A stretch of DNA of 64,000 bases from Glycomyces xiaoerkulensis (GTDB lineage Bacteria > Actinomycetota > Actinomycetes > Mycobacteriales > Micromonosporaceae): NCBI RefSeq assembly GCF_002798405.1, contig NZ_PGGV01000037.1, positions 310,001 to 374,000 on the forward strand. Direction: 5' to 3'. Shown here in pieces: positions 31,116 to 52,061 of this stretch. The first letter of the stretch is position 1. Each line of letters opens with the position of its first letter. Both the position numbers and the translations under genes were made by a program. Under the pieces are notes generated by a model. It worked only from the letters and a program-made list of their open reading frames with translations. It was not told where the DNA came from and did no database searches.

Positions 31116-31161
31116 TTCGCGTCGGCGAGGGCTACCGGCCCCCGCACGAACCGGTTCCCGT

Positions 31162-34100
31162 CTACGTGTCGATCCACCAGGAGCCGGCGGTGGCGATCTC
31201 CAGGTCCCGCACCGTGACGACCGGCAGCCGGGACCCGCGGATGTCGGCGAAGAGCGTTACCTCCAGGGAGAGCGTCGCACCCGCAGTGCTGGGACGGGCG
31301 TGCCGGTGCCACAACTGGAGGTTGTCCGAAAGGCGCTGTGCGAACGTGTCGAGGTCGGTCGCCCCGTCCTCGTCCGCGTGAACACCGGTCGCCAGCCGGA
31401 CGTGGTCGGCCAGGAGCACCGGGCGGTCGCCGCGCAGTCCAAGGCCGTCCGTTCCCGCGAGCCGGTACCTGTAGTGCAGGCCCGCCTTGATGAAGCGTTC
31501 CCTGTATGCCGCCGCTCCGGCGGTCGCCAGCGGGGACAGCGCCTGAACCAAGGTCTCTCGGACATCCGCACCGGGATGCACCGGGCCCGCCCTGTCCACG
31601 GTGACGACCGGAGACACCGGGCCCACGAAACCCACCTCGGGGGTTCGGTAGACGAACGCGGCACTGGTCTCGACGGCGTCGTCCTCCGACAGGTGAGCGT
31701 TGCGCACCAGCCAGAAGACCGTCTCGGCCGTCTGCCGGGAGAACACGTCGATCGCCGTCCACTCCAAGGTGAGTTCGAGTTCCTCCCCCGGCGGCGGATT
31801 GAACCGGTACTCGGCCCGGTACCAGCACGGGTCCGGTGTCGGCGCGCCGGCGCAGGCCTGCTCCGCCGGTCGGCACACCGCGCCGACGTTGCCTCGCGGC
31901 GTGTACCCGTTGATCTGCGGCCATCGCAGCGACGCCTCGTCGCAGGTGCCGTCCTCCTTCACTCCCGCTTTGGCGTAGACGTGCAGGAGCTTCCGTCGGG
32001 CGTCCGCGAAACGGATGACGTAGCTGTCCTTCACCGGCCCAGGCGCCTCCGGCGGCGGGGCGTCGTCCGCCGCTTCGGGTCCGTCGGCGGGCGCCCACGG
32101 GTCGGGGATGCCGCGCAGCGCCGCCCAGGCGCGGGTGACCCGTTTGACCGCGTTCCAGACGGCGGTGATGACCTGTTGCGGAGCCGGGGCCGTCGCTTCG
32201 CCCGGGACGGTGAGCCCGGCCAGATGCGGCCGGAGCTGCGGCCACGCCACGGAGAAGGCGGCGAGCTCCTCCGGCAGTCCGGCCAGGGGAGGCTCCCGGT
32301 CGTCCCGCATCGACGCGCCCTCGCCGGCATCGTCGGCGACCGGCAGGTTGTAGGTGACGTCGAACCACAGGTCGTCCTGGGCCTCCCACTCCGGCAGCAC
32401 GAGGTCGGCCTCGTAGTCCCATGTGAGCGGATCGGCGAGGTCCCAGTGCGGCGTCACCGCGGGCCGGTCGGCCTTCTGCCCTCTCAGCACGAACGGCGGC
32501 GGGTGCTCCCGCGAGGGCACGGGCACGTCCAGGTGGCCGAGGGGGAGGTCGAACGGTTCGGGTTCCTCCTCCAGCACGATCCTCAGCCACTGGGAGGGCG
32601 CGTACCCGTGGTCGGCGTGGTCTGCGGGGATCTCGCGTTCCAGGAACCGCGAACGGTAGGCGGGCCGTATCGGCAGGTGCGCGACCTGGTGCGGTTCGGT
32701 GGCCGTCACCGGGAACGAGAGGCGGTTCGGCTCGGTGTCGGTCGATCGCAGCGGCAGTTTCGCGGTACCGGTGGTGAAGGCGGAGGCCTCCTCCGTCCCG
32801 TCCGAATCCGGCGCGTCGCCGACGACGCTGCCGAACAGGCGGGTCCGAGTGGCGGTACCGGTGTCCTTCACGGTCACCCGCATCGGCACCTGGACGACCG
32901 CGGAAATGTCGTAGGCGGAGGAGAGCTCGTTGAGCACGGACTGCTCGAAGCGGTCGCGGGCCTCGGCGAGGCCGCCGGCCGCCTGTCCCTCCAGCACGGG
33001 TTGCACGCCTTCGGCGAGTGCCTGGGCGAGCACGCTCTTGGCCCGCATCATCTCCTGGTAGGTATCGGCGTCCAGACTCGCGACGGTGGGGGCGTGGTCG
33101 GCCGACAGCACCTCGTCCACCGCACACAGGAACTGCCGCGCCCACGCGTCCAGATCGACGCCGGTGAAGGTGCGCTCGGCGACGGCGGGCCGCAACGACG
33201 CATCGTAGGCGGGCACGTCGGCGGTGACGGAGGCCAGGTGGACACTCAGCGGGGCAAGGGAGAAGTAGGAGGGAGCGTCCTCGGCGGTGCGGACGGTGAT
33301 TCCCGCGGTGCTGCTCCAGCGCACCGCCCACAGCGCGGGCGTGGACGGGGCCGCCTCCGTCTGCGCGCCCTCCCGCACGTCCGAGGTGACCGCCACGCGC
33401 GCCCGTCCTCCGTCGCCGTCGAAACCGGCGAAGGCGCTCTCGAAGTCGCGTGCGAACCCGCGCAGCCGCGCCTCGTCCTGCGCGTCCCCCTCCGCCCCTG
33501 AGCGCCGGGCCGGGGGCGAGTCCAGGTCGGCGGCCACGGTCAGTGTGGCCGATTGCGATCCGGGCACCTGCTTCCCGCCGTCGGTGTAGACGTACTCCGG
33601 CGGCCGGAAGAACGTCAGGGTCGTCTGGATCTCGACGATGTTCTCGGGGGCCTCGGCCAGGTCGGCCGGGTCTACGGCCGCGGGCAGGTCGAGTTCGACG
33701 GGCGAGCCCTCGTTCCCGGCCGCGATCGCGAGCAGCTCGGTCTTCGCCGATCGCGCGAACCGCGCCAGTTCCGAACGCAGCGCCTCGCCGTCCGCCAACG
33801 CCTCGCGGGAGGGCTGCACCGTGGTGCGCAGCGCCACCGAGAGGCGGGGGTCGCCGAGCTGCGCCAGGACGAGGTCGTAGCGGGCCACCGCCGCCTCGAC
33901 CTGCTGCGCCACCCGCTGTCCGGCGGTGGGCTCCACTCCGGGCGCCAGGCCGTGCACGGGCGCGGTGAACGCCGCCCCTGCGGTGCGGATGTGGGAGGGA
34001 TCGAAGCGCAGCCGCAGCGAGAGGGCGGGGCCTTCGGCGTCAGCCCCCGGAGGAACGAAACGGTAGGCGCAGTGCGCCCCCGGCCACTCCGCGGGGAGGA

Positions 34101-37100
34101 TCAGCGGATCGTTGTAGGTGACCGGGAACGGCGCGGAGAAGGAGGCGCTGTCGAGTTCATTGCCGAAGACGTCGTTGAGCCGAAAGGAGAGCAGGGGGCG
34201 CCCGCCGACCGCCGCATAGGGGTCGGCGCGGTCGTCGTCCCTTTGGGCGAACAGGGACACGGGCACGATCTGGCGGTAGTCCTTCTTCGCGGGGTCGCCG
34301 CCCGGAGACGGGCTCCGCTCGCCGGGGCCGCGCTCCCGGGTGGGGGACAGCGCCGAACTCCACGGCGAGGCGTCGAACTGAGGCAGGGTGCCTTCCTGCT
34401 CTCCGCTGACCCGGTATTGGATCAGGTGGTACAGCGAAGCGACCCAGTCCGGTGTGCAGGGGTCGGGGGCCGCCTCGTGCATCAGCAGCTCGTTGGCCCG
34501 CTGCCACTCGGCCGTGAACCCGACGCAACCGGGCGGGTGCGAGGGCGCGAGCACCCGGATCGGCCCGTCGGCGTCGCCGGGCCGGAGGACGAGCGTGTCC
34601 TGGTAGGCGGCGTCCAGGGCTGGCGCGAAGGAGTCGTGCCAGGCGTCGAACCGGGGCGTTTCCTCGGCGGCGAACGTCACCGCGACCGTCAGGTCGGCCG
34701 AGTTCCCGGACGCGAAGATCCGCTCCGGCAGGTCCGATCCGTCGGCCGCGGCGTAGCGCAGGAAGAACCCGCCGGTGTGGACCGTGCTCACCTCCCACAG
34801 GAGGCGCAGGAAGTCCTCGGTCTGATCGGGTGTGGCCGTGGTCGGGCCGAGTTCGTCGGGGCCCTCCGGTGCCGAGGGCGCGGTCGCGAACATGACGTTC
34901 GCCTCGGCGGGCTCGTTCGACGTCGACAGGTTGGTCTTGGTGAGCGTGACCGGCTGCTCGGCCGGGTCCAGGCGGTCGGACCGGTAGCCGACCGTCGGTG
35001 CGTTGTAGAGGAGGGAGACGGTGGCCTGCTGCGGCAGCGTCGGGTCCGCCTGCTCCAGGAGGCCGTGGATGCGGGCGCGCGTGCGGGCGTCGGTGCCCTC
35101 CACCCGATACACGAAGGGCACGTGGCGGCCGGCCGATCGCGGGGTCGCGTCGGCGTCCTCGGCGCGTTCCACCCGGTGGAGGCGGAGCGGGATGGTGAGG
35201 ACAGGAGCCGCCGGCAGCGGCCGGGTCTCGCCCGCCTTCGACACCGTCACCTCGAGGGGCCGACGGGCCGTTTCGGCAAGTACGCCCGGCGGGAGCGGCA
35301 CCAGGAAGCGGGTGGTCCCGGCCTCCGTCCACGGCGACCGGAACCGCTGCGCGTACCGGGTGTCCTCGCTGTGCGCTGCGGGGAGGGCGTCCACGTTGAT
35401 CGTGTCGGCGCCGGTGCGCGCGCCGGGGCGGACGTCGGGACCGGTCCAGTCCGGGTGCGGCGGGTCCGGCACCTCGCCCATGCGGGTCGCCGCTGTGGCG
35501 GTTTTGGCCCCGCCGTCGAACCGCAGCGCCGCGGCGCGCTCGTCCCGCGACTTGTCGATCGACAGCGTGGCGGTGCAGGTGGCGGTGTCCGGGGCCGTGA
35601 ACTGCTGGCCGGTGAGCGTGTACCCGGCTTCGGGCGCGATGGTGGACAGGCTGTCGGGATCGGGCAGGCGGAGGCCGTGCAGCAGGTAGCGGGAGACCAT
35701 GCCGGCCAGGGGCCCGGCCTCCGGCTTTCCGGCGGCGTTCTCGGGCCCGCTGTGCGCGAGCTGTCGGGCGATCAGGAGGAAGTAGTCGTCGAAGACGAAC
35801 CGCGCCACGGACCCTTCCTGCCCGGAGTGCGCCCGGTCGGCCGTCGCGGCGGCGGCCACCGTCCCGCGCAGGGAGAGGGCCTCGAAGTACGCGTCGACGG
35901 CTTCGACGTATCCGGGGCCGGTGGGGGCGCGGTCGGCGAACACGACCGAGCCGCCGTCCCACGTGAGTCTCATGGCGTCGAAGACCGGGAAGACCGCGGC
36001 ATCGTGCGGCTCGCCCTCCTTGGTCAGGTCGATGCCGCGCACCGTGAACCTGACCTGCCGGGTGAGGAAACCGGTGAGTGCCTCGTCCCAGTGCTCGGGG
36101 GGAAGGTCGCGGCCCTCGCCGAGGGCGGTGCGGACTTCGCCCCAGGTGCCGCTGTTCGGCGCCCACACGTCCAAGAGCCAGGCGGCGAAGGCGTCGACGA
36201 GTTTCTCCCAATCGGTGGTGCCCTCTGCCGGAGCCTCTCCCGGTGGCGGGCAGGCGATCGTCAGCAGCGCGACGGCCGACCCGGTCTTCGCGCCGTTCCG
36301 GTAGACGGCCGACGGGTGGAGCAGGAAGCCCAGGCCGATGTCGACCGGCTCCGCGTCGGGAGCGCCCGCAGGTTCGGCGGCGGCCTCGATCACCGGCGCC
36401 GGGGCGTACCCGGGTTCAAGGGCGGCGACGGCGGGGGCGTCCGCTTGCCTCGGGGGCGCGCCGTGCATCCCTTGGAAGGCCGCGTTGCGAGGGCCGTTCA
36501 GGCTTGCGGGTCCGTGTTCGCCGGTGCTGAGGGCGAACGTCTCGGAGATGGTGGTGTCGAAGCTGACGGAGATCCTGACGAACACGATCGTGAGGCCGGC
36601 TTCGGCGTGGACTCGGGCGACGACCTCGGCCGCCGTCCCGTACCCGCTCTCGAACGCGATCCCGGCGGTGACCGACAGGCGCACCAGCACCGAGATCCGG
36701 ATCACCTTGAGTTCGATACTGCCCTGGAGCTGGCCGACGATGCCGACGGTGGCGGCGAACCAGTGGTAGTCCGGTGCGCGGGACAGGCTCGCGGCCCGGC
36801 CGCCGCCGGGGGCCTCCCAGGCCAGGAGGCCCTGGAAGGTGCCCTGGAGTGTGAGGCTGAGCGTGGCGGAGAAGGGGCCCTTCTCGATGGAGCGGCCGAG
36901 ACCGAGCCATACGGCGAGGCCGAATTCGAGGACGGGGTTGTAGTCCGGGGCCGTTCCCGGCGAGGGCGGCACGGCCTTGGCCGCGTGGTTCGGGTCGTCG
37001 CCGCTGCGGAGCTTGGCGAAGTAGAAACCGCCGCCGCCGGTGAAGACGGCGACCGCCACCCCGATGGAGTCGGGGCCCAGCGGCCACCCCACGCTGACCT

Positions 37101-38139
37101 TGAAGTCGCCGTTGGTGTAGATCCAGATCCTGAACGCAGGCAGGGTCAGCGCCACGGCGCCGAGGTCGATCCGGCGGAACGCCTCGGGGATGGTCAGGGC
37201 GCCGTAGTACACGCCCAGGTGAGGACCGAGTTTCTGATACAGGATCTCGAACAGGAAGCCGTCGAACGGATCGCCCGGGCTGGCGCAGGTCACTTCGAGT
37301 CCGTACAGCACGGGGTCGTTGAAGAGCGCGCGTACCCGCCAGCCGCGGAGCCGGATATCGGCGGCGACGAACCAGCCCCGGTCGGGGTGGAAGCAGTCGG
37401 CGAGCTCCCGGACGACCGTCACCGGGTCGTTGCTGGTGAGGTTCTTCTCCAGCACGTCGAAGGTGTCCTTGAGGGGGTCCTCGGCACCGACTTCCACGGT
37501 GGGGCCGAACTTCTGCCCGAGCCCGAGGTACTCGACCTCGAAGTTGGGCGTGCCCTGGTCCGGCAGGGGCAGAGGGAAGGAGACCAGTTGGGTCTTGCCG
37601 CCGGGCCGGTCCTCCTCCGGCGGGGCGTCCCCGCGGCCAGGGGCGACCCGCGCGGACCCGGCCTCGGATGGCGCCGACCGCTGCGGCTCGTACTCCACCC
37701 TGGCCCGGAGTTCGAGCCCGCCCTTGGCCCGGTCATATCCGACGAGCAGGTCGTAGACGGTGAAGTCCGGCTCGACGGTGATCCAGGAGGGCAGTCGCTT
37801 CCCCGGGAACCGCAGACCGTAGGTCGGGCCGTCGTAGAGCTTGACCACCAGCAGGACCGAGGGCCGCCGGTCGACCTCGACGGTCAGGGAGGGCTCCACC
37901 TCGATGTCGAAGACGTCCTTCCACGGCGCCTGCTCGGTGGCGTCCAGGAAGCCTTGCAGGGAGTCGCCGAGGCCGAGCATCTCGGCCAGGTCCGCCACGA
38001 TCCTGCGGAGCTTGGGCCGCGTCGGGCTGGAGCCGGGCGTGATGGTGAGGCGCTCGGCCCCGAGGCCGCGGGTGAGGCCGAGCTCGAGCGCGTAGTCGGC
38101 CGGCAGGTACAGGATCGTGCAGGCCAGGGTTGTATGCAT
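31162..38139 (-). CDS. Giant (2325-residue) beta-rich protein of unknown function
   Basis: Starts ATG one base after the stop of the preceding gene, so translation is coupled. No signal peptide or classical membrane helices. Residues 1-230 are mixed; about 270-640 form long runs of alternating hydrophobic/polar residues with Gly (GVAVAVFTGGGGFYFAKL; LSLTLQGTFQGLLAW; IRISVLVRLSVTAGIAFESG), strongly beta, resembling uncharacterised beta-rich repeats such as DUF6603, an unverified impression. The middle contains acidic, Pro-rich linkers and predicted beta-sandwich segments; the last 250 residues have conserved-looking Trp/Tyr-rich stretches (VFWLVRNAHL; YRERFIKAGLHYRYRL; SWWIDT). Five genes in a row with the same direction suggest a multi-protein assembly. 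Function unknown; I would not assign one. Confidence 0.85.
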   Translation of the reverse strand: MHTTLACTILYLPADYALELGLTRGLGAERLTITPGSSPTRPKLRRIVADLAEMLGLGDSLQGFLDATEQAPWKDVFDIEVEPSLTVEVDRRPSVLLVVKLYDGPTYGLRFPGKRLPSWITVEPDFTVYDLLVGYDRAKGGLELRARVEYEPQRSAPSEAGSARVAPGRGDAPPEEDRPGGKTQLVSFPLPLPDQGTPNFEVEYLGLGQKFGPTVEVGAEDPLKDTFDVLEKNLTSNDPVTVVRELADCFHPDRGWFVAADIRLRGWRVRALFNDPVLYGLEVTCASPGDPFDGFLFEILYQKLGPHLGVYYGALTIPEAFRRIDLGAVALTLPAFRIWIYTNGDFKVSVGWPLGPDSIGVAVAVFTGGGGFYFAKLRSGDDPNHAAKAVPPSPGTAPDYNPVLEFGLAVWLGLGRSIEKGPFSATLSLTLQGTFQGLLAWEAPGGGRAASLSRAPDYHWFAATVGIVGQLQGSIELKVIRISVLVRLSVTAGIAFESGYGTAAEVVARVHAEAGLTIVFVRISVSFDTTISETFALSTGEHGPASLNGPRNAAFQGMHGAPPRQADAPAVAALEPGYAPAPVIEAAAEPAGAPDAEPVDIGLGFLLHPSAVYRNGAKTGSAVALLTIACPPPGEAPAEGTTDWEKLVDAFAAWLLDVWAPNSGTWGEVRTALGEGRDLPPEHWDEALTGFLTRQVRFTVRGIDLTKEGEPHDAAVFPVFDAMRLTWDGGSVVFADRAPTGPGYVEAVDAYFEALSLRGTVAAAATADRAHSGQEGSVARFVFDDYFLLIARQLAHSGPENAAGKPEAGPLAGMVSRYLLHGLRLPDPDSLSTIAPEAGYTLTGQQFTAPDTATCTATLSIDKSRDERAAALRFDGGAKTATAATRMGEVPDPPHPDWTGPDVRPGARTGADTINVDALPAAHSEDTRYAQRFRSPWTEAGTTRFLVPLPPGVLAETARRPLEVTVSKAGETRPLPAAPVLTIPLRLHRVERAEDADATPRSAGRHVPFVYRVEGTDARTRARIHGLLEQADPTLPQQATVSLLYNAPTVGYRSDRLDPAEQPVTLTKTNLSTSNEPAEANVMFATAPSAPEGPDELGPTTATPDQTEDFLRLLWEVSTVHTGGFFLRYAAADGSDLPERIFASGNSADLTVAVTFAAEETPRFDAWHDSFAPALDAAYQDTLVLRPGDADGPIRVLAPSHPPGCVGFTAEWQRANELLMHEAAPDPCTPDWVASLYHLIQYRVSGEQEGTLPQFDASPWSSALSPTRERGPGERSPSPGGDPAKKDYRQIVPVSLFAQRDDDRADPYAAVGGRPLLSFRLNDVFGNELDSASFSAPFPVTYNDPLILPAEWPGAHCAYRFVPPGADAEGPALSLRLRFDPSHIRTAGAAFTAPVHGLAPGVEPTAGQRVAQQVEAAVARYDLVLAQLGDPRLSVALRTTVQPSREALADGEALRSELARFARSAKTELLAIAAGNEGSPVELDLPAAVDPADLAEAPENIVEIQTTLTFFRPPEYVYTDGGKQVPGSQSATLTVAADLDSPPARRSGAEGDAQDEARLRGFARDFESAFAGFDGDGGRARVAVTSDVREGAQTEAAPSTPALWAVRWSSTAGITVRTAEDAPSYFSLAPLSVHLASVTADVPAYDASLRPAVAERTFTGVDLDAWARQFLCAVDEVLSADHAPTVASLDADTYQEMMRAKSVLAQALAEGVQPVLEGQAAGGLAEARDRFEQSVLNELSSAYDISAVVQVPMRVTVKDTGTATRTRLFGSVVGDAPDSDGTEEASAFTTGTAKLPLRSTDTEPNRLSFPVTATEPHQVAHLPIRPAYRSRFLEREIPADHADHGYAPSQWLRIVLEEEPEPFDLPLGHLDVPVPSREHPPPFVLRGQKADRPAVTPHWDLADPLTWDYEADLVLPEWEAQDDLWFDVTYNLPVADDAGEGASMRDDREPPLAGLPEELAAFSVAWPQLRPHLAGLTVPGEATAPAPQQVITAVWNAVKRVTRAWAALRGIPDPWAPADGPEAADDAPPPEAPGPVKDSYVIRFADARRKLLHVYAKAGVKEDGTCDEASLRWPQINGYTPRGNVGAVCRPAEQACAGAPTPDPCWYRAEYRFNPPPGEELELTLEWTAIDVFSRQTAETVFWLVRNAHLSEDDAVETSAAFVYRTPEVGFVGPVSPVVTVDRAGPVHPGADVRETLVQALSPLATAGAAAYRERFIKAGLHYRYRLAGTDGLGLRGDRPVLLADHVRLATGVHADEDGATDLDTFAQRLSDNLQLWHRHARPSTAGATLSLEVTLFADIRGSRLPVVTVRDLEIATAGSWWIDT

Positions 38140-38140
38140 G

Positions 38141-38593
38141 TCACTCGTTGCTGACGCCGAAGACGACGCCCCCGATCGACAGCACACCGGGTATGAGCTC
38201 GACGCCGTTGTTCTCGGGCCAGGCGCCCGAGAGGCTGATGGTGAAGAGCTTGGCCTTGTCGCTGGAGCCCGTCCCGGGGATCTTGACGTGGAACTGGCGG
38301 ACGGTCACCTTCAGGTTGGCGAGTTTCCCGAGGACCTCGTCCAGCGGCGGCGGCATGTCCGTTGGTTTTGGCAGGGACATCTTGAACTTTTCCGAGAACC
38401 AGGTCTCGAACTCGTTCATCGTTCCCAGCTCGACGGCCTCCGGCAGCGTGAACTCGATCCCGTTCGCTCGGGCGTTTGCGATGTCCTTGGTGGATACCGG
38501 TACGTGGGTTCCGTTGAGGTCGAAGACGACGCCGAAAACGATGTCGGTCTTCTTGGCGGGCGTCTCGTCCGCCGGATTCGACGGTGTAGTCAT
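38141..38593 (-). CDS. 150-residue protein of unknown function, giant-protein operon
   Basis: A soluble protein of 150 residues with a Thr/Pro-rich start followed by IVFGVVFDLNGTHVPVSTKD, an acidic helix (NEFETWFSEKFKMSLP) and a beta-rich end (LSGAWPENNGVELIPGVLSI). No cysteine and no signal peptide. Begins 10 bp after the 86-residue protein stop and ends one base before the start of the 2325-residue protein. The hydrophobic beta end is similar in character to the giant protein. Could be a structural subunit or chaperone for it. No family recognised. Confidence 0.75.
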   Translation of the reverse strand: MTTPSNPADETPAKKTDIVFGVVFDLNGTHVPVSTKDIANARANGIEFTLPEAVELGTMNEFETWFSEKFKMSLPKPTDMPPPLDEVLGKLANLKVTVRQFHVKIPGTGSSDKAKLFTISLSGAWPENNGVELIPGVLSIGGVVFGVSNE

Positions 38594-38603
38594 GTGCGTC
38601 TCC

Positions 38604-38864
38604 CTAAGACGTGTTCTGATTACTGTGGATCGTGATGTGGACCCTGCCGTCGAGCACGGCGAAGGAGAACGGCTCGGTAGCGAGGGCGTCGTAGAGAACC
38701 GGGAGTTTTCCCGCCTTGACCTCCAGTGCGACCTTCCAGAGCTGTTCCAGCACGGTCCCGTTCGGGAACGAGGTGGGCAAGTCGAGGCCGTACTCCTCGT
38801 TCACGGCCTGGATCAGCTCCTCTACCGTGCGGGCGTCGGGGATGTCCTCGGCGGCGTCGGACAC
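38604..38864 (-). CDS. 86-residue protein of unknown function, giant-protein operon
   Basis: Starts GTG one base after the stop of the 1183-residue protein gene (TGACGTG), so expression is coupled; a longer in-frame reading would lie inside that gene. An acidic helical first half (ARTVEELIQAVNEEYGLDLP) and a short beta second half (FSFAVLDGRVHITIHSNQ). No cysteine, no signal. Probably a small accessory of the operon. No family recognised. Confidence 0.7.
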   Translation of the reverse strand: MSDAAEDIPDARTVEELIQAVNEEYGLDLPTSFPNGTVLEQLWKVALEVKAGKLPVLYDALATEPFSFAVLDGRVHITIHSNQNTS

Positions 38865-38865
38865 G

Positions 38866-41800
38866 TCAGCTCCCTTCCCGCGAGGCGGTGAGCTGGGTGG
38901 CCGCCAGGTTCCAGGCGATGGCACGGCGCCCGGTCGCGGGGTCCTCGCCGGCGAAGAGGACGAAGTCGGTGATCACCTTCGGCGGCAGGCGGAGGCCCAG
39001 GACACTGAGCGCGACGTTGTTGAACAGGAGCACGAAGCAGGGCTCGGGCTCCCGTCCGCCCTTCGGGGTCACGCGGACCTGGAGCAGGTTGGCGTCCCCG
39101 AAGGTGGTCTTGAGCAGTCCCTGGAGCTCGAACCCGAGCGTCCCGGCCGTGACCGAGGGGAGCTGGATGAACAGTCCGACGGCGTCGTCGTCGGGGGAGT
39201 AGGTGTTGGGTCCCCAGCCCAGCACCAGGGACGCGTCGAGTCCGGCCGCCGCCTCGGCCAGGTTCCCCAGCGTTCCGAGCGGCAGGTCCATCCGCAGCGC
39301 GTACCGAGGGGAGGAGGTCGTGTGCCCCCGCTCGCCAGCAAGCTGGACGAGGTTGACCCCCTGGCCCCTGAGCGCGGCCGCGGTCAGGCCCCGCTCGTTG
39401 TGGAGGAAGCCGGTCGTGGTCACGGGAAGCCTCGCCGCCAACCCCTCGTCCCGCAGCGCCGCGGGACTGTGCGTCACCTGGACGCCCCCGAGGTCGGGCG
39501 CGATCTCGGTGTCGCCCACCCGTTTGCCGTCCTTTCCGAGGACGCAGGTCAGGTCCAGCGCCAGGCCGTTCATGCGCAGGCCGGCCCCGCCCCGGTCGGA
39601 ACCGGTCCCGTAGGAGAAGAGGTCCAGATCCGCGTACCGGGTGCCCCCCGAACCCGAGCCGCCGTCGCCCTCGGGGAAAGGGTGCGGCCGGAAGTGCAGT
39701 TCGCCGTCGAGGGCGAAGCGCGATTTGACCGTGGTGCCGTCCCCGGCGGCCGCCGAGGAGGTCGGAGTGATCGCGGCCCCGGTGACGGTGAACGCCTCCA
39801 GCACACGGACCGCGTCGCCGTCGGCGAAGGAGAAGGGGACCTTATCGGCGGCCTCGAAGGCGACCGTGCCGATTCCGTCGCGTTCCAGGTAGCGTCCGGT
39901 GACCGCGACGCTGTTGTCCTGCGCGTCCGCGGTGGCGCGGTGGACTCTTCGGCCGAAGAGCTCGTTGATCGTCATCGCGACCTCGGCGTGGAACCGGGTG
40001 ACCGCCGAGTTGCGGACGGCCACGTTCAGTTCCCGGACGCGGAAGTCGAACGGTTTCGGGTCCGGCGGCACCACCTCGGAGGCGGGCGGCGCGTAGTGCA
40101 CCACGCCGAACAGCGAGCTCTCGGCGATCTCGGGAAGGCCGTCCCGGTCCCGCTGGATCCGGTTGGCTTCGACACCGAAGTGGTGCGCGGTCAACCGTCC
40201 ATCGATTCCGGCGAAGAGCATCTGGAACGATTCGGGCATCCCGTTGCCGTTGATGGGCGAGTTGAAGGCGACGATGCCGGTCCATCCGGGACTGGTGGCG
40301 ATGACGTCGCGGAAGTAGCCGAAGGGGTCGTCGGTCTCGCCTTCGGCGTCCTCGGCGGTCCGCAGCGCGGCTCGCAGCGTGCCTCGGGCCCGGCTCACCG
40401 CCGGGGGGCCGCCGATGAAGTAGGCGGGCTCGGCCCAGTCCGCAGGGCTGTCGGCGAGGTCGGTCAGGGAGCGGTCGGTGGCGCGTTTGACTACCAGGAG
40501 GGTGTCGGGGTCGCCGTCGGACGGCGCGAGCTCGAAGTTGAAGCCCGCCAGGAGCAGCTCCGCGCTGATGTCCTTGAAGCGGTTCCAGTCGTTCAGGACG
40601 AGGAAGACCTGGTCGTGGACGAGGGCGCCGGCCAGTCGCGCGTCAACGGTCCCCGTCCGGCCGTCGGCGTTGAGGGCCAGGGTCTGGTTCCCCTTGGCGG
40701 CGAGAAGCACGCGCTTCCATGTGCCCTTGGCCGCCGAAGGCCGGGAACCGTCGTTGAGTTCGACCACCAGCCCGCCCGGTGTCGTGGTGCGTCCTCCGGG
40801 GAGCGGTTCGCCGTCGGCGTCGGTGAAGACCGGCGGCGCGATCGGCACCGGGTCGGCGGTGGCGCCGTCCTCCCGCGTCGCGGGTTCGGGGTCCTCCCCT
40901 GCCTCGTCCTGTCGCAGACATGCGCCGCGCAGGCCGGTGAGGACCTGCTGCTCGAACCTGCTGAGGGTCTCGGCCTCCCGGAGATCGTCGTCGGCGCTGG
41001 TCAGGGCACCGCCGTAGAAGGCCATTGGGAAGGCGGCCCCTGCGGCTCGGTCCAGGGTCCGCACGAGGCAGGAGACCGCCGCTGGCAGATCCATCGTCCC
41101 CGCCTGCTGCGGAGGCACGACGCCGTGGCCGTAGTGGACCGAGGCCGCCGGCTGCGCGTAGTAGCCGCGCGGCCCGGGCGAGGGTCCGGGGCGGAGGCGG
41201 ACCCAGGAGGTCGTGTAGGAGGGATCCAGGCCCACGCCCCCGTCCCCCTCGGGAAAGCCCGGCGCGTACGCGGGCCGTCCCGGTACGAACTCCAGCATGT
41301 CTCCGTCGCGCACTCGCAGGTACTCCAGGCCGGAGGTGCCGCACATGAGGCGACCCCCGTCGGCCGGGCGCTCCTCAGGAGGGAGGTCGAGCGCGTAGCG
41401 CCCCGTCGGGGCGAGGTAGACGAAGGGCTGCCCGGGAGGGCCGTGCGGGCTGTCCGCGCTGGTGCGGGGCCTGCGTGCGAGGTGGAAACCGGCCGGGCAC
41501 GGCCCTTGGCCGAGCAGCGGCCGGAGCCCGACCGGCCGTCCGCCCACCGTGAAGGCCCCCGATGCGCTCAGGCCGGGGTCCTCGGTGAAGCGGAGATAGG
41601 TGCGCGAGGCGTCGGTGACGGCCAGCGGGTCCAAGGCGAGGTCGAAGCTGAACTCGTCGTCGGACTCGCGTGCGGCGGGCAGCAGCGGGTAGACGAGCTG
41701 GCGGACGCGCGACTTGCTTTCGGGAACGAAGAAGCGCAGTTCTCCGCCCCGCGCGTCTCCCTCCGCCCGCCAGTCGTCGCTGAAGACCCGGTAGCAGCGG

Positions 41801-42417
41801 TGGACCTTCCATCTCGCCGCACCGGTCAGGCTGCCCAGTGAGTCCGAGGCGAGCTCCAAGACCAGGGTGAAGTCCAGAGGGGCCAGGGCCGGGGGCTCCT
41901 GTTCGGGTGGCACGTTCGGGTACGGGAGCGGGCGCAGGCCCATGCTCCCGCCGGAGCCTTGGAGGACGATCCGCACTTGTTCGTTGTCCAGGCTGATTTG
42001 GACCTCGGACGACAGATGGAGACGGATGTTGCCGAACGGAACGCTCTGCGGCGGATCGGTGTAACTGACGTGTCCCCAGCGGGGGCCTCCCCAGACCAGG
42101 GAGACCGGCACGGCCCCCTCGCCCCCGGGCTCCGGGAGCCAGGCCAGGACCCGGGCGGTGGGGTCCTGGCCTATATGCTCCCGGGACAGCCCCAGGGCGG
42201 CGAGGAGCTCGGGGAATCCGGCGGTGGGCTCGCCGGGACAGAAGAGGTAGGCTCCCGGCGTGTTCCAGGACTCCTCGAGGGAGAGATCCTCGGGCGCCGA
42301 GCCGACGTCGAACGCTCCCAGGTAGAACAGCCGTGTCCTCGCCCCTTCCGGTTTCGGCTCCCAACGGTAGAGCGCCGTGCCGTCCGGTTCGATTCCCGCG
42401 CGTACGAACTCCGTCAT
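38866..42417 (-). CDS. 1183-residue protein of unknown function, giant-protein operon
   Basis: From the ATG at 42417 (GGGGACGG upstream). No signal peptide or membrane helices. The first 500 residues contain several WGHVSYTD/PFGNIRLHLSSE-like beta segments and a tryptophan-rich ARWKVHRCYRVFSDDWRAEG. The last 300 residues are beta-rich with long amphipathic strands (RYALRMDLPLGTLGNLAEAA; AVGLFIQLPSVTAGTLGFEL; CFVLLFNNVALSVLGLRLPP), similar in texture to the 2325-residue protein, so the two large proteins may share a fold. Only a handful of cysteines. Stop to next start spacing is one base. Function unknown. Confidence 0.82.
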   Translation of the reverse strand: MTEFVRAGIEPDGTALYRWEPKPEGARTRLFYLGAFDVGSAPEDLSLEESWNTPGAYLFCPGEPTAGFPELLAALGLSREHIGQDPTARVLAWLPEPGGEGAVPVSLVWGGPRWGHVSYTDPPQSVPFGNIRLHLSSEVQISLDNEQVRIVLQGSGGSMGLRPLPYPNVPPEQEPPALAPLDFTLVLELASDSLGSLTGAARWKVHRCYRVFSDDWRAEGDARGGELRFFVPESKSRVRQLVYPLLPAARESDDEFSFDLALDPLAVTDASRTYLRFTEDPGLSASGAFTVGGRPVGLRPLLGQGPCPAGFHLARRPRTSADSPHGPPGQPFVYLAPTGRYALDLPPEERPADGGRLMCGTSGLEYLRVRDGDMLEFVPGRPAYAPGFPEGDGGVGLDPSYTTSWVRLRPGPSPGPRGYYAQPAASVHYGHGVVPPQQAGTMDLPAAVSCLVRTLDRAAGAAFPMAFYGGALTSADDDLREAETLSRFEQQVLTGLRGACLRQDEAGEDPEPATREDGATADPVPIAPPVFTDADGEPLPGGRTTTPGGLVVELNDGSRPSAAKGTWKRVLLAAKGNQTLALNADGRTGTVDARLAGALVHDQVFLVLNDWNRFKDISAELLLAGFNFELAPSDGDPDTLLVVKRATDRSLTDLADSPADWAEPAYFIGGPPAVSRARGTLRAALRTAEDAEGETDDPFGYFRDVIATSPGWTGIVAFNSPINGNGMPESFQMLFAGIDGRLTAHHFGVEANRIQRDRDGLPEIAESSLFGVVHYAPPASEVVPPDPKPFDFRVRELNVAVRNSAVTRFHAEVAMTINELFGRRVHRATADAQDNSVAVTGRYLERDGIGTVAFEAADKVPFSFADGDAVRVLEAFTVTGAAITPTSSAAAGDGTTVKSRFALDGELHFRPHPFPEGDGGSGSGGTRYADLDLFSYGTGSDRGGAGLRMNGLALDLTCVLGKDGKRVGDTEIAPDLGGVQVTHSPAALRDEGLAARLPVTTTGFLHNERGLTAAALRGQGVNLVQLAGERGHTTSSPRYALRMDLPLGTLGNLAEAAAGLDASLVLGWGPNTYSPDDDAVGLFIQLPSVTAGTLGFELQGLLKTTFGDANLLQVRVTPKGGREPEPCFVLLFNNVALSVLGLRLPPKVITDFVLFAGEDPATGRRAIAWNLAATQLTASREGS

Positions 42418-42531
42418 CGTCCGTCCCCGTTCCGGCATTCGGTTCGGCCGCGTCATCGGTGAGGCCGCCCCTCCCGCCATGCGGCCGGGAGCGGCGGTAC
42501 CTCGGATCCCCTCGGCGAGGAGGGCCGCCCC

Positions 42532-42909
42532 CTAAGGCAGGCTGCCATCCGCGACTTGCCGGACCATTCCCGTGCTGGCGTCGATGAGGATGAGCGTTCC
42601 CTTGGTCAGCACGAGCACGAGGTCCTGGTTGATGGGCAGATCGTTCAGCGACGGGAGCGTGACCGCCGACTTGGAGTTGAAGGAGGGCCACACGATCTGG
42701 ATCGGGTTTTCGCCGGGCTTGAAGCCCGCCACGCTCGGGTCGCCGTCCGGGTAGATACGGGGCACTGCGATGCTTCCGGGCGAGTACGGGGCGGGAGTCC
42801 CGTCTTGACGTTTCCAGGAGTCGATCCTTCCGACGTCGTTGCCATCCACTTCAAAGTGGAGGACCTGGTTGACGTTGTAGTTGTGAACGTAGACCGTGCC
42901 AGCGGTCAT
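42532..42909 (-). CDS. 125-residue protein, first gene of the giant-protein operon
   Basis: ATG 42909 has a strong GGGGGAA site. The sequence alternates short beta-strands (TVYVHNYNVNQVLHFEVDGN; DLVLVLTKGTLILIDASTG), with a proline-rich loop (GTPAPYSPGSIAVPRIYP), suggesting a small beta-sandwich or a single propeller-like module. No signal, no cysteine. It opens the operon, 114 bp before the 1183-residue gene, and the upstream 250 bp are without genes, so the promoter probably lies there. No family recognised. Confidence 0.75.
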   Translation of the reverse strand: MTAGTVYVHNYNVNQVLHFEVDGNDVGRIDSWKRQDGTPAPYSPGSIAVPRIYPDGDPSVAGFKPGENPIQIVWPSFNSKSAVTLPSLNDLPINQDLVLVLTKGTLILIDASTGMVRQVADGSLP

Positions 42910-43165
42910 GAGAATTCCCCCTTTTTCAGGTCCCCGGTATCGGCGGGGACGAGACCTTCGCACCCGAAACCGTGGTGCCGACCCTCAGCGTATGAACCAC
43001 CACCGTGTCTCGCTGCGATACGACGCAACACCGGCTGTCAGCAATCAGACACAGCCGATAGGCGTGTATCCCGATGCCGGCGCGGGCGCCCATGCCGTTC
43101 GGAGGCGGCGGCCAGGACGCTTCCGCGCCGGGCCGACGCCGCCGTGGACGATTTCGAGGCACGCT
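42910..43165. other. Promoter region of the giant-protein operon
   Basis: About 255 bp without a gene. It carries an imperfect dyad GGCTGT...ACAGCC around 43033-43056. No typical -10/-35 pair is evident, and no known operator is recognised. Confidence 0.4.
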
Positions 43166-43169
43166 GGAG

Positions 43170-43490
43170 GACGCTGCTGCGCACTCGGACAAGGCGGATC
43201 AATACATGTCACTCCATTTCAGACAGTATGGTGAAGGCGACGGCGCCCTCCGGTCGCGTGGCGCGGTCGGCTCAAGCGCGGCCGGTGCGTTGACCGAAGT
43301 CCTTCCCTGCCTCGCTCAAACGCGAACCGCTCGGTACGAACGGGAAGTTCGCCGCCGTCACCAGAGCCAGGCCGAAAGTGTTCTACTACTTCAACCGGTT
43401 CGACCACCCCAGGCGGCACCCGTCGCTCGGCTATGACTCCCCGGTCGAGTACGAGCGGCGCCTCGCTACTGTCCCAACCACCATCAAGAT
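43170..43490 (+). pseudogene. IS3-family transposase remnant (OrfB end)
   Basis: Matches the C-terminal part of the IS3 OrfB encoded at 50.8-51.6 kb: AHSDKADQYMSLHF corresponds to the HTDNGSQYTSLDF Asp motif, then RSRGAVGSSA, a frameshift near 43300, PASLKRE and finally RRHPSLGYDSPVEYE. The start and the first catalytic Asp are lost, so it is inactive. It is followed by a remnant terminal repeat at 43494-43518. Confidence 0.82.
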
Positions 43491-43493
43491 TTG

Positions 43494-43518
43494 GTGTCCC
43501 CGCCTGAGGGGAACTCCT
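43494..43518. repeat. Remnant IS3-type terminal inverted repeat
   Basis: GTGTCCCCGCCTGAGGGG followed by AACTCCT resembles both ends of the IS3 element at 50749-52061 (GTGTCCCC...GGGGAA-CTCC). It marks the right edge of the decayed IS just outside the tRNA-derived repeat. Confidence 0.65.
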
Positions 43519-43565
43519 CCTTGTGTGGATCAACAAGGGCAGACTTCGGACACGTGCAGCAAATA

Positions 43566-43595
43566 AGCCGACCAGCTCGCAAGGGCCGGTCGGCT
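43566..43595 (+). terminator. Hairpin terminator
   Basis: AGCCGACC (43566-43573)/GGTCGGCT (43588-43595), an 8-bp perfect stem followed by AACGTTTT. It precedes the left tRNA-derived repeat and probably belongs to the chromosomal side of the original integration site. Confidence 0.6.
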
Positions 43596-43623
43596 AACGT
43601 TTTAGCAGGTAGAGCTGCCTTCT

Positions 43624-43679
43624 CTGGCGGAGGATGAGGGATTCGAACCCTCGACCGGGATCAACCGGAACCCGCTTAG
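43624..43679 (-). repeat. Attachment-site copy: 3' half of tRNA-Ser(GCU)
   Basis: Identical over 56 bp to 58450-58505, running from the CCA end to the anticodon loop; the sequence then diverges (CTTAGGTAGG against CTTAGCAGG), so it is not a complete tRNA. Typical footprint of site-specific integration into a tRNA 3' end. Confidence 0.9.
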
Positions 43680-43762
43680 GTAGGCGGTTTACAAGTTTCT
43701 CGACCGCGGATTGCGCTTACCAGGTAATTTACCAACCAGGGACTCTGCCCCGGATCACCAAA

Positions 43763-43793
43763 AGCCAGGAGTTCGACTCCCGCCAACTCCACA
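43763..43793 (+). other. tRNA-like 3' end fragment
   Basis: AGGAGTTCGACTCCCGCC then AACTCCAC resembles a T-arm and acceptor 3' strand of a tRNA or tmRNA, but no 5' partner (GGAGTTG) is upstream. It may be a footprint of another element once integrated here. Confidence 0.4.
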
Positions 43794-43940
43794 AACGGAC
43801 ATATAGAACATTAGTGACCTTCATGTTGGGGGTCGCTATTTTCTTGCCTATCAGAGACGTTCTCGCGTGTCAGAGGTCTAGCCTTCGCAGTTAGGACGTT
43901 ACCCCCAGTCCTCATCGGCACGACGGCTCTGTGAGGGAGG

Positions 43941-44147
43941 ATGGTCTTGGCCAGGAAGCGTTACGACATCCGCGTATCCGGTGAGGTGCGGGAGCCGCTT
44001 GATGTCGACGGGATCGCCAACGTGCTGCTCGACTTCCTTGCGCAGCAATTGGAAGCATGCACCGGCTCGGACGAGCAGGATGCAGCATGCCGAGGAAGGA
44101 AAGATCCGACGGATCGGCAGCTGATGAGCAGCCCCGTTAGTGCCTGA
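43941..44147 (+). CDS. Small protein of unknown function at the island's left end
   Basis: 68 residues if started at ATG 43941; the in-frame TTG at 43947 has better spacing from GGAGG (43936-43940). RKRYDIRVSGEVREPLDVDG and NVLLDFLAQQLEA look like a structured alpha/beta protein, but I recognise no family. It precedes the STAND NTPase gene by 180 bp on the same strand and could be its partner. Confidence 0.45.
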   Translation: MVLARKRYDIRVSGEVREPLDVDGIANVLLDFLAQQLEACTGSDEQDAACRGRKDPTDRQLMSSPVSA

Positions 44148-44327
44148 TGGCGATAGCGCCCGCGCTGCATGGGGCGGTGTCAACACCTAAGGGTCAGGTC
44201 CCGTAGCAGCCTGTGATAGCTCATACATCTACTTCGATGCAGTGATCGGTGCGTTCGGGTCGGCCCGCTCAGGACGTCGGAGATGGCTATGGTGGTGGGA
44301 TAGCACTTCCTGAGAAGGACTCTCGTC

Positions 44328-47300
44328 ATGTTCGAGCCAGCTTCAGGTGCCCTCGCCGGGTGGGCCACCAAGCAAATCGCGGGTAAGATTTCCGCTGCCA
44401 TCCGTGCTCGCCGCTTGCGTGATCGGGACGCCCCCGAGGTTCGGAACGCCCTAATCAGCGTCGTGAAATTGGGCGTGCAGGACGCGGTGGCCGAGGTCTT
44501 TCCGGAAGACCAGGATCGTCAGGATTATGTTCGCGCTCTGTTGCTTGAGCGGTCCGCTGATGAATGGCCGCTTGTCGATGGGACCTACCCGGTGGAGCTA
44601 CCTAATGGGGTGCGGCAGTGGGTGTCCTGGATCGAGTCGCAACCGGATGAGGATGACCGGCTCGAAATGATCGAGCGGGATCATGACCTTGCTGTAGCGC
44701 TGTGTGTTGCCATCCTGGAACGCCTGCACCATGCTGCGGTTCGTGGCGATCGGGTCTTGGCCGATCTCTGGCACGATTTCATCGTTGAATCACGCCTCGA
44801 TGAGCCCTCCTCTGACTTGGTCCTGTCCTCGGCGACGCCCGGAGGCTCGTTGGACAACTGGCAAGTGAGTTCCTGGGCGGGTGACGGCGAAGCCGAGCAG
44901 CGATTGCGGCGTACGGTCAAGACGCAGCATCGGCGTGTTGAGCGCCTTCAGCCGACCATAGGCATGATCGATCGTCCCGAGACCGAGGAAGTTCTCGGCA
45001 TCCTCAATGACGTCGAAGCCCCGCAGGTGTTGCTGGTCGATGGCAAGGCCGGAATGGGAAAGTCGGCCGTTGTCGCGGAAGTGGCTTCGTCGCTGGAGGG
45101 GGATGGCTGGGCCGCTGCGGTGACCCGAATGGACGGGCCAACCCTGGTACGGAACGCTCGTGATCTGGGATCCCAAATGGAGCTTGCGGCTTCGCCTTCG
45201 CTTGTGCTGGCTGGAATCGCCGCAGGCCAGCCGGGGTTGCTGGTCATCGACCAGTTGGATGCCGTCAGCGAGCTTGGCGGTCGCATGCCCGATGGGTTCG
45301 AAGCGGTGGATGAGGCCCTCGATGACGTGCGGGAACACCCGAATATTAAAGTGCTCTTGGCCTGCCGCACAGTAGATCTAGAGCAGGACCCACGACTGAC
45401 CAGCCTGCTACAAGGTGATGCTTCGACCAAGCGTGTCCGGCTCAGCGAGCTTCCCGCCGAAGACGTCAAGGCACACCTTGCCGCGCACCATCTGCATGTG
45501 CCGTCCGCGGATGTGCTGGAGCTCCTGCGCACACCACTGCACCTTTGGGTGTACTGCCAGCTTGACGAGACCGCCCGCGACCAGCCGTTCAGAACCTTGC
45601 CAGACCTGTACGAACGGTTCACAGCAAACGTACGGCGACGCCTCGAACACCGAGTCGGGGACGTCGCCTGGGACGCGATCACGAGCACGCTCGTGACTTA
45701 CATGAGCGAACACGAAGTGCTCACCGCCCCCGCTGCCTGCCTCGATCCTGCCAGGCTCACGGACGTCGGCGCGTTGGAGTCGGAATCGATCCTTGAGCGC
45801 TTCGACAGCGGCTTCGCCTTCTTTCACCAATCGTACTTCGACTACCTGTTCGCTCGAGCGTTCATCCGAGATGACGATGACCTGCATCGGTTCCTGGCTG
45901 AGTCTGGTCAATTTCTCTTCCGGCGATCACAGACTCGCCAAGTCCTCGACCACCTCGCCGCCGTCAACCGCCCCGTCTTCCGGCAGACGGTGCGGCAGCT
46001 CCTGGCCTCTGAAGCCATCCGGTTCCACCTCAAGGACATCATCGTCACCGACCTACGGCAACTGAAACCCACCGCCGACGACTGGGCCGCGATCGAGCCA
46101 CTCGCCTGGGACTCGTTGCCTATCGCACCGAAACTTCGGTCACTGCTCAGCGTCCCGGGCTGGTTCGATGCCGTCGACGACCTCGGGCGATGGGAAACCT
46201 GGCTCGCCAGCCGTGAACACCTCGATGCGGCATTCATGCCGCTGGTCATAGTCGCGAAAGACCGCCCCGAGCGGGTGGCGGACCTGCTCCGCCCTTACAT
46301 CGACGCAGGTGGCCGCTGGCGGGAGCGACTCGTCACCCTCATCAATTGGTCCCTCCCGCCGGGCCTGGTCGACTTCACCATTGACCTGATCGAGCACGAC
46401 TTGCTCGAGGCACCGGACACGTCGGTGACTCCCGTAGAGCTCTGGCCGCTGCTCTATCAGCTCAAGGCCACCGACCCCGATGGCGCAGCCTGCCTGATCG
46501 GTGCCCACCTTCGCCGCAGCCTCGACCGCGCGCGTGAGCATGGACATGCCGACCCGTTCGACGTCGGTCGTCTGGATCGCCACGAATCGTCGGCGAGCAT
46601 CATCCAGGAGATCGCCGAGTCAGCCCCTGCGGCCTTCATCCGGGAAGTCCTGCCCTTCGTCATCGGCATCGCGCTGACTGACCAGCGAACTCCTGAAGCC
46701 CGCCTGCCATACGGGACCCGATGGAAGAACTTCTACGAGATCGCACCCGCAGGCGTCGACGACATCGTCTTCACCGCGACCGAGACGGCCCTGACCAGAC
46801 TCACCTCCCAAGACCGCGAGAAGGCCAACGCATCGCTGGCGACACTCGGCACTGCCGACAGTCAGGAACTGCGGTTTCTCGCGTGCCGGGCACTGACCGA
46901 AGCCGGCGAAGCCGACGAGGCCATCGAGTGGCTCGTGTCCGATGATCGCAACCTTCTCCTGGGTTGGACCGGCGACGCCTACTGGGCTGCCGCGCGACTC
47001 ATCGAAGCCCATTCGCCCCACTGTTCAGGCGACCGACTCGGGCGACTCGAGCAGACGCTGCTGGCCCATACGTCACCGGTCGAGACGCGACGCGGCCACG
47101 GATATGGCCAGTACATCCTCTTGACTGCACTTGACCAGCAACGGACCTCGGAGGTAGTGCGCAAGCGCCTTGACGAACTCCAACGGCGATTCCCGAACGA
47201 CCCTCCCTCCGGGCCCCGCTGGCAACCCGACGAGCACGAGGAGCAGCGGTTCGGACCAGAGGCCGCGAAGCAAATGTCCGATGACCACTGGCTACAGGCG

Positions 47301-48617: not shown

Positions 48618-48785
48618 ATGCAAGTCGCGGCTCGTCTGCAAGCTTGATGGCGCACTCAGTTTCGTGGTTGGTCATGACGAAAGATCCCCAGCTTGACTAC
48701 CGCACAATCTCGCGATGGGTGGTATTTGTACTTGTGGCGGGCGTACCGGACCATGGCGTGGCAGTTCTATTCGGGCAAATTCTGT

Positions 48786-49670: not shown

Positions 49671-50055
49671 GACCTTCAGTCTAGGAACTCCTTACCTACC
49701 TGCTGTATTCGTCTCCGAGAGACCAGCGCGTCGCCTATGCGGAGGGAGGGCTTCACGGATGTTGATTCGAGATTCCCAGCGGGTGTGCAAGCGGCTGAAC
49801 AAATAGATTAGCGACGGGCTGCCCTGAGCGCGAAGATACCTTCCAGAGCTTAGCGCTCACTGGCTCGAACTCGAACAACGCTACCGCCCACTGGACATCG
49901 GCGTGGTCCATCCACTGTCGGACATCAGCAGGGTCTTTTCAAGTTCCCGGCATGGGTGAGCTGTCGGTCCGAGGCTGGTTGGGCCGCATAGCAATACAGA
50001 CACGGGTTCCGTCATCATCGTGGTGTCTTAAGCCTGATGATCACGAAAGCTTCCC
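49671..50055. other. Intergenic region ending in an insertion-sequence end
   Basis: 385 bp. No gene seen. Its last 60 bp form a long hairpin, CAGACACGGG (49997-50006)/CCCGTGTCTG (50053-50062), overlapping the start codon of the ISAs1-type transposase remnant. Confidence 0.5.
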
Positions 50056-50748: not shown

Positions 50749-50777
50749 GGAGTTTCCCCTGAAAAGGGGACACGTTT

Positions 50778-51623: not shown

Positions 51624-51991
51624 CGGCCAGGTCTTGGCATGGTCCGCGACGAACTGGTATTTCGTGCCCAGTCCGTCGCGCGCAGAAAAACTGCGGACGC
51701 CTTGCGCAGGATGTTGCGCTCCTCGCGCAGTCGGGCGACTTCGGCTTTGAGCCGGCGGTTCTCTGCTTCGATCACAGCCTGGGAGGCTAGGTCCAGCGTC
51801 GGGTCCTGGCTCTGGCCGGCCGCGTTCGCGGTGAGCTTGCCCGCACCGGCCTTGCGCACCCAGTTCTTCAGCGTGTTCAGCGAAATGCCCAACGCCGCAG
51901 CAGTCTTCACATACGACGAATCAGTGTCGGTCACGTACAAACGGACCGCATCGGCCTTGAACTCATCGGTGTACTTGCTGCCTGATGCCAC
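51620..51991 (-). CDS. IS3-family transposase OrfA
   Basis: 123 residues from a GTG. Helix-turn-helix (YTDEFKADAVRLYV; GISLNTLKNWVRKAG) and the leucine-zipper-like EAENRRLKAEVARLREERN. A GTTTTTC run after ASA marks a plausible -1 slippage site giving the OrfAB fusion. Confidence 0.9.
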   Translation of the reverse strand: MASGSKYTDEFKADAVRLYVTDTDSSYVKTAAALGISLNTLKNWVRKAGAGKLTANAAGQSQDPTLDLASQAVIEAENRRLKAEVARLREERNILRKASAVFLRATDWARNTSSSRTMPRPGR

Positions 51992-52061
51992 CTTGATCGC
52001 TCCTTGCAGCCGAGCCTACCGGCCCGACGATCCAGGTGTCCCCACCACAAGGGGAAGCTCC

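Follow-up and report, generated by a model that had tools for sequence, protein, structure and literature searches.

Within a window of 64,000 nucleotides from Glycomyces xiaoerkulensis (the whole stretch of DNA analyzed here, positions 310,001 to 374,000 of contig NZ_PGGV01000037.1), we evaluated a five-gene operon that encodes, in this order, a small upstream protein, a large partner protein (P2), two small proteins (P4 and P3) and a giant protein (hereafter the giant). Our interpretation, held with a probability of roughly 40%, is that this operon belongs to a widespread and mobile delivery system built on two giants, and represents a form of it in which no cargo is recognised. Comparison with relatives showed that a conserved pair, P2 and the giant, brackets an exchangeable slot which, as judged from sequence comparison, most often holds a nucleic-acid-acting or hydrolytic enzyme fold; pair and slot together we call the cassette. 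Delivery of the slot enzyme through a membrane would be a further step, suggested by the cargo type, the prediction of a barrel in the giant, adhesion domains and an apparent lack of export signals, and we give it somewhat less than an even chance. Where the original prediction had left the choice among a structural complex, a toxin and a lipid-handling particle undecided, we infer from the relatives that a toxin-like delivery machine is favored.

The evidence for a conserved system comes from a profile of the giant's 400-residue core, which found 250 relatives in the GTDB contig collection, the best 80 of which were kept; since one degenerate pattern was used, and 170 of the 250 relatives lie outside the kept set, this prevalence is a lower bound. 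By their titles, the 80 kept relatives fall into ten phylum-level groups (Bacteroidota 33, Cyanobacteria 13, Pseudomonadota 12, Acidobacteria 10, Actinomycetota 4, Bacillota 3, Chlorobi/Ignavibacteria 2, and Eremiobacterota, Verrucomicrobia and Chloroflexota 1 each). One contig of a viral collection also matched the core profile, and tblastn searches of plasmids with P2 and with the giant returned eight records each, the identical eight (two Azospirillum, Nostoc, Mycetohabitans, Lysinibacillus, Embleya, Tistrella and Paenibacillus). Reading the 80 core relatives, the eight plasmid loci and the viral one (89 loci, 87 of them distinct, since L018 and L048 duplicate the plasmid loci L009 and L015 and were removed ahead of slot typing), we found P2 directly before, or fused to, the giant in 82 (80 of the 87 distinct loci). 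Two acidobacterial loci (L024 and L038) carry P2 and the giant core in one open reading frame (ORF; 1833 and 3688 amino acids (aa), respectively), a fusion that lends further support to a physical complex. Seven loci showed no P2: four start at or near a contig end (L020, L034, L063, L095), L067 lacks it in 2.4 kb upstream, and L027 and L054 lack it in the 1.6 and 3.6 kb seen. This pairing, its recurrence in all eight plasmid records and a P4–P3 order shared with nine cyanobacterial loci uphold the multi-subunit assembly that had been proposed from the window alone. Both a named family for the large proteins and a pattern in which their homologues never occur together were looked for, and neither was found. 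A conserved multi-gene system of scattered distribution, on chromosomes and plasmids, is therefore well supported.

Closer to the window, the cassette is rare, being present in 4 of 397 genomes of the same taxonomic order, the window genome counted. A family-level relative (G041) has P2, one more gene and the giant adjacent to one another, and a genome of the same genus (G015) has a cassette in which an EEP protein, readable in a single frame, separates P2 from the giant, an ORF of 3227 aa. A search of 101 genomes with the single P2 sequence found only the window genome and G041, while the P2 profile found the P2 of G015 at E 3.1e-228, so counts from single-sequence searches are too low; a scan of genome contigs with the P2 sequence alone returned no relative. 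Among genes flanking the cassette, those upstream of P2 in Embleya (locus L014, 5062-6813) and Tistrella (locus L015, 7921-9666) are homologous, the Tistrella gene being annotated as Hint domain-containing, with weak Pfam Hint matches. In two Mucilaginibacter loci (L039, L040) the gene after the giant has collagen-like repeats.

Within the window, the five genes, their lengths and their gaps (114, 1, 10 and 1 bp) were reproduced to the base. Purine-rich stretches lie upstream of four of the five starts, that of the giant being weak, and longer in-frame starts are available to four of the genes (143, 1204, 106 and 2341 aa). We regard the genes as coding because their third-position GC is 0.79-0.91 (measured on the longer ORFs) and homologues occur in the same order. 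None of the five proteins reached a family in Pfam, NCBIfam, PHROGs or PADLOC, and P2 and the giant, the two compared with PDB sequences, found no family there either; the lone Pfam match, of DUF7941 to P4, was below cut-off (E 0.14). An assignment to DUF6603 was considered and dropped, since Pfam gave no such match and the name occurs in none of the papers searched.

P2 gave an AlphaFold2 model that is mainly beta (59 alignment rows, mean pLDDT 81). No Pfam match was found in any of ten family members scanned, the window's included. Foldseek returned no significant match for the model (best E 4.4e-3) and VIA no convincing fold relative (best Z 4.5), a result that, because VIA was limited to Foldseek's own rows, is no proof of a new fold. 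The single PDB match of the P2 profile (E 0.3) was treated as chance. The original prediction had also given both giants a common beta structure, and here it was not supported: the predicted strands of P2 alternate between hydrophobic and polar residues no better than chance (1905 of 5000 shuffles as high), and hhalign showed no homology of P2 to giant residues 1-1190 (best probability 0.4%). What stands of that interpretation is the multi-gene assembly.

The slot was typed by a frame-by-frame profile scan, because greedy ORF calling took wrong frames in some GC-rich loci (e.g., L103 and G041); for G015 the type rests additionally on the single-frame EEP reading. Among the 84 loci scanned (the 80 distinct loci with P2 plus the window, G015, G377 and G041), enzyme slots were EEP nuclease-type in 29, metallo-beta-lactamase (MBL)-fold in 18, HNH in 3 and deaminase in 1, and the others were of the P4+P3 type in 10, a different small pair in Bacteroidota in 6, none recognised in 15 and fusions in 2. 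Fourteen of the 15 slots with nothing recognised leave no more than 54 bp between the genes, and the other holds a 1114-aa gene. In some loci with enzyme-less slots the gene upstream of P2 looks like an enzyme: in Pseudomonas and Kosakonia it encodes, as judged by reading, an EEP-like protein whose start resembles a signal peptide, and in Paenibacillus a NAL1-type (Pfam) protein. Of 27 EEPs found, 22 were aligned, and 12 columns of this alignment show no variation; they include W-N, E, H, D-N, D and S-H, which we take to be the EEP catalytic set. At Pfam E <= 0.01, in part under the curated cut-offs, Exo_endo_phos was matched by 11 of these 22, and among 22 other slot enzymes (17 MBL-like, 4 HNH-like, 1 deaminase) Lactamase_B was matched by 14 and HNH by 2. 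The MBL slot proteins presumably resemble the ComEC type. The one deaminase has a Bd3614/MafB19-type deaminase match above the Pfam cut-off, and we assume these families to be toxin-associated.

Besides that of the window copy, the slots of the P4+P3 type are those of nine cyanobacterial loci (Symploca, Moorena, Leptolyngbya and Adonisia, some of them near-copies). The conserved synteny anticipated for the small proteins between the giants is thus present in these nine, with the same two proteins in the same order. P3 matched the nine cyanobacterial members at phmmer E 1.3e-11 to 2.4e-10 (BLASTP E 5e-11), and P4 matched four members at E 2.8e-10 to 6.6e-6 and the cyanobacterial profile at E 2.2e-11, while pairwise BLASTP of P4 against L021 alone was not significant. 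A distant link of P3 to the Bacteroidota small pair is possible (hhalign 81%). Homology of P3 or P4 to the giant's N-terminal repeats and of P2 to P3 was looked for with hhalign and not found.

To describe how the slot is inherited, we used a quick core tree of 72 tips, with 12 near-copies dropped and 22 of 69 inner branches weakly supported. Slot type changes at least 18 times on this tree, and because this number lies between the possible minimum of 7 and the shuffled mean of 42.3, the slot is, as judged from the tree, inherited yet exchanged, at an uncertain rate; fewer changes are required by the well-supported branches on their own (4 in EEP, 2 in MBL, 3 in none recognised, 2 in P3/P4 and 2 in HNH). 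The cassette has two architectures, and the window copy is the small-protein one: the part of the giant before its core spans 626-1402 aa in 49 enzyme-slot loci and 135-498 aa in 16 small-protein loci, groups that are not independent by descent. The longer pre-core part has internal repeats (its profile aligned against itself with hhalign). Other giants homologous to that of the window are mostly 2500-4700 aa long. The window copy lacks most N-terminal repeats, the LysM domains and a slot enzyme.

LysM was found in 11 of the 12 giants of one Pfam scan, the exception being the window giant, and the 11 relatives were hand-chosen long giants, none from a small-protein locus. LysM also occurs in the Mycetohabitans and Tistrella giants and in one half of the split Paenibacillus giant, the first half giving no LysM match, and at the Nostoc locus laminin-G is present in genes before P2 and after the giant.

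The AlphaFold2 model of giant residues 1-1190 (59 rows) has a mean pLDDT of 68, with core blocks mostly at 75-94 and the lowest at 63. VIA-align, run on the Foldseek rows, placed residues 196-565 on outer-membrane barrels at Z 10.9-13.3 in the 50 rows shown, such as OmpT of V. cholerae (Z 13.3, 228 residues at 6.8 Å) and FrpB (Z 13.0, 262 residues at 5.6 Å); 48 of these 50 are outer-membrane barrels by title or known identity, 8agd and 9j9l being unclear from their titles. Z reached 8 or more in 313 of 989 chains, and the typical best Z for models without a clear match is 7-8. Alternation of hydrophobic and polar residues in the core strands was a mean difference of 2.83 against 1.31 in shuffled strands (0 of 5000 as high), with the strands of P2 serving as the control, and the parity of the hydrophobic side of six long strands is kept in 59 of 59 aligned rows, which are related and mutually aligned, so that these counts are not independent. 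A search of BFVD with the giant model gave nothing at E <= 0.001. Residues 196-565 are predicted on this modelling to form an outer-membrane-porin-like barrel.

Signal peptides were assessed with a simple hydropathy scan rather than a trained predictor. By this crude measure no clear signal peptide was seen on P2 homologues or giants, the best 12-residue hydropathy near the start being 0.04-1.95 and 0.14-2.23, respectively. Nothing signal-peptide-like was seen in the window's five proteins (0.29-1.5 near the start, at most 1.67 over 19 residues), in agreement with the earlier reading of the window. Hosts include Actinomycetota and Bacillota, which have no outer membrane. Among 53 slot sequences of at least 250 aa, seven meet the crude signal-peptide rule, and the five convincing ones are all MBL-like.

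We hypothesize that the giant would act as pore or translocon, P2 as shell and the slot protein as cargo. Given the apparent lack of export signals, we would expect synthesis in the cytoplasm and release through lysis or some other route, and fuller versions would attach to cell walls or glycans with their LysM or laminin-G domains. P2 and the repeat region of the giant would shield the barrel until it inserts in a target membrane, and the slot enzyme would pass through the barrel or travel beside it. The window copy, with P4 and P3 in its slot and without most repeats, LysM and an enzyme, may act as a pore alone or with cargo that is unrecognised or encoded elsewhere; as a divergent form, it may be pore-only, carry unrecognised cargo or be decaying.

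Several observations weigh against this interpretation. The Foldseek matches of the giant model are not significant (best E 2.5e-3, LptD), the barrel matches lie at root-mean-square deviations of 4.7-8.2 Å, and strand alternation reveals two faces and not which side points outward. Slots without a recognised enzyme make up 33 of the 84, the window copy has neither a recognised enzyme nor LysM, and the Nostoc giant, which has an EEP slot, gave no LysM match. Three giants reach a hydropathy of 2.1-2.2 near the start (L066 and L076 above 2.1; L013 and L081 near it), and some have inner 19-residue stretches of up to 2.5 that the scan could not assign. Sec-like signal peptides on some slot or upstream enzymes mean that cargo and machine may fail to come together within the cell. 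Among the slot and flank clusters we recognised no gene of immunity type, although immunity proteins often go unannotated.

Comparison with known systems revealed partial likenesses. Passages of a polymorphic-toxin survey (Zhang et al. 2012, PMC3482391) list LysM and laminin-G among toxin adhesion domains. The cassette shares with polymorphic toxins exchangeable enzymes set against a conserved carrier (here four enzyme classes, none of them in the window copy), but its enzyme is a separate ORF between P2 and the giant rather than a carrier C-terminal domain, no adjacent immunity gene was recognised, and P2 and the giant match no Pfam family except LysM. With Tc (ABC) toxins it has in common very large proteins and a plan of channel, shell and variable enzyme part. 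The TcA channel is a helical pentamer, whereas the cassette giant has a predicted porin-like single-chain barrel, and no Rhs/TcdB- or TcA-type Pfam match was found in the window proteins, the 12 giants or the 10 P2 proteins scanned. Outer-membrane porins and receptors resemble the predicted fold of giant residues 196-565, but the giant's barrel sits inside a protein mostly of 2300-4700 aa with no clear signal peptide, and some of its hosts have no outer membrane. Extracellular contractile injection systems, described (PMC8213781) as enriched in environmental bacteria and associated with numerous toxins, are alike in these two respects; unlike them and other phage-tail-derived systems, the operon has no sheath, tube or baseplate gene (PHROGs, 0 of 5 window proteins). 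PADLOC-DB models of anti-phage defence proteins likewise matched none of the five, and lipid carriers of the lipovitellin and microsomal triglyceride transfer protein type appeared as weak Foldseek rows for the giant and in none of the VIA rows shown.

No tested family or system has its defining parts, and the system is apparently undescribed, no description having been found in the open PMC literature with the few terms tried. Two large families (in our Pfam scans P2 gave no match and the giant none but LysM) form this cassette across distant phyla. In its boldest form the proposal is of an undescribed, horizontally mobile translocation machine: soluble giants, produced in ten phylum-level groups that include bacteria lacking an outer membrane, would bear a porin-type barrel and bring exchangeable nucleic-acid-acting enzymes into other cells; to this we give considerably less than even odds. 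If the barrel reading is true, the cassette would represent a self-contained device for protein translocation of a new kind, and the presence of a porin-like barrel in bacteria without an outer membrane would be explained. With only a few genes, and with culturable carriers in soil and water, the cassette makes the question directly testable.

Among the alternatives, the one that survives best is display without injection: a scaffold, secreted or released by lysis, would present hydrolytic enzymes on glycans or peptidoglycan and so serve scavenging (e.g., of extracellular DNA). LysM in many giants, laminin-G neighbors, the signal-peptide-like starts of MBL-type slot proteins and of the Pseudomonas and Kosakonia upstream EEP-like proteins, and the Paenibacillus NAL1-type protein are all consistent with such display, but P2 and the giants have no clear signal peptide, one slot holds a deaminase of a presumably toxin-associated family, and a porin-like barrel has no evident use there, making a scaffold unlikely. 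Quite improbable, in our view, is a lipid-handling, storage or surface structural particle in which two-faced beta sheets cover lipid and form no membrane pore; the giant's long amphipathic strands would suit it, as would lipovitellin (E 0.058) and microsomal triglyceride transfer protein (E 0.16) among the weak Foldseek rows, yet 48 of the 50 VIA rows shown are outer-membrane barrels and none of the 50 is lipovitellin, and an exchanged nuclease or deaminase slot has no evident role in lipid storage.

Intracellular anti-phage defence, with a variable nuclease or deaminase effector and the giant as sensor or as pore that kills the infected cell, seems to us very unlikely. Polymorphic effectors are typical of defence systems; a STAND/NACHT-like HEAT ATPase and a PifA-like KAP ATPase lie in the tRNA-Ser-bracketed element beside the operon, and SIR2 and type III-B CRISPR genes are found close to the A. 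lipoferum locus. Set against this are the lack of PADLOC matches among the operon proteins, the LysM and laminin-G domains that point outside the cell, the exported look of some cargo, and a Pfam scan of 12 giants and 10 P2 proteins that found no ATPase or nucleotide-binding domain at E <= 0.01. Least probable of all is that the window copy has decayed into a divergent relic, non-functional and deprived of its cargo, N-terminal repeats and LysM: its end branch of 2.6 is the second-longest in the core tree (median 0.41), where so long a branch leaves its place unsure, and only 10 of 81 complete core ORFs are shorter than its 2325 aa, several of them split giants, but all five frames are intact with strong coding composition, and the conservation of P3 and P4 with nine cyanobacterial loci indicates that the small-protein form is not a random loss.

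The genomic setting of the window copy bears on mobility (Table 1). The original prediction held that nothing in the neighborhood explains the operon; a variable stretch and a bracketed element would explain mobility, but not function. Left and right flank genes are 8.6 kb apart in the same-genus genome G012 and 27.6 kb apart in the window, with nucleotide similarity ending at 31141 and resuming at 58404, by a tRNA-Ser called in both. Copies of this tRNA-Ser end bracket an element of about 15 kb that holds transposases, the STAND-like ATPase and the KAP ATPase. Bracketing repeats and such gene content are typical of an integrated element, and the pair looks like its attachment-site repeats. 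That the whole 27-kb variable stretch is one island ending at the tRNA-Ser was ruled out by the second tRNA-end copy, which places the bracketed element beside the operon and not around it.

Table 1. Features of the operon and its surroundings (positions within the window).
Feature	Position	Strand	Remark
Upstream small gene, 125 aa	42532..42909	-	No homologue among compared flanking genes of relatives; singleton
Partner protein P2, 1183 aa	38866..42417	-	Family conserved; model predominantly beta
Slot protein P4, 86 aa, GTG start	38604..38864	-	Homologue of the first gene in cyanobacterial slots
Slot protein P3, 150 aa	38141..38593	-	Homologue of the second gene in cyanobacterial slots
Giant protein, 2325 aa	31162..38139	-	Homologous to other giants over most of its length
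Predicted outer-membrane-porin-like beta-barrel core, giant residues 196-565	36445..37554	-	
Six long two-faced strands, giant residues 399-536	36532..36945	-	
Stretch differing from same-genus genome G012	31141..58404	.	About 8.3 kb of different DNA at this place in G012
63-bp, 97% copy of one tRNA-Ser end	43625..43687	-	Full tRNA-Ser at 58451-58540

Within the bracketed element, the STAND/NACHT-like ATPase (44328-48617, 1429 aa) has C-terminal HEAT repeats (Pfam below cut-off) and matches the PADLOC candidate PDC-M54A at E 1.8e-13, and the KAP-family ATPase (54526-56973, 815 aa) has a strong PADLOC PifA match at E 1.9e-50. The transposase genes lie at 50056-51991, one DDE_Tnp_1-associated and one rve/HTH_21 with a small gene before it. 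At the other edge of the variable stretch, ARAGORN called a tRNA-Ala (anticodon agc) at 31047-31136 that overlaps the end of an SGNH hydrolase gene, where similarity to G012 stops; no such tRNA-Ala is called in the G012 stretch, which makes the call doubtful. Further left, a protein with LPMO_10 and CBM2 domains (28281-29765) has 33 matching places in its own genome, many of them to the CBM2 end.

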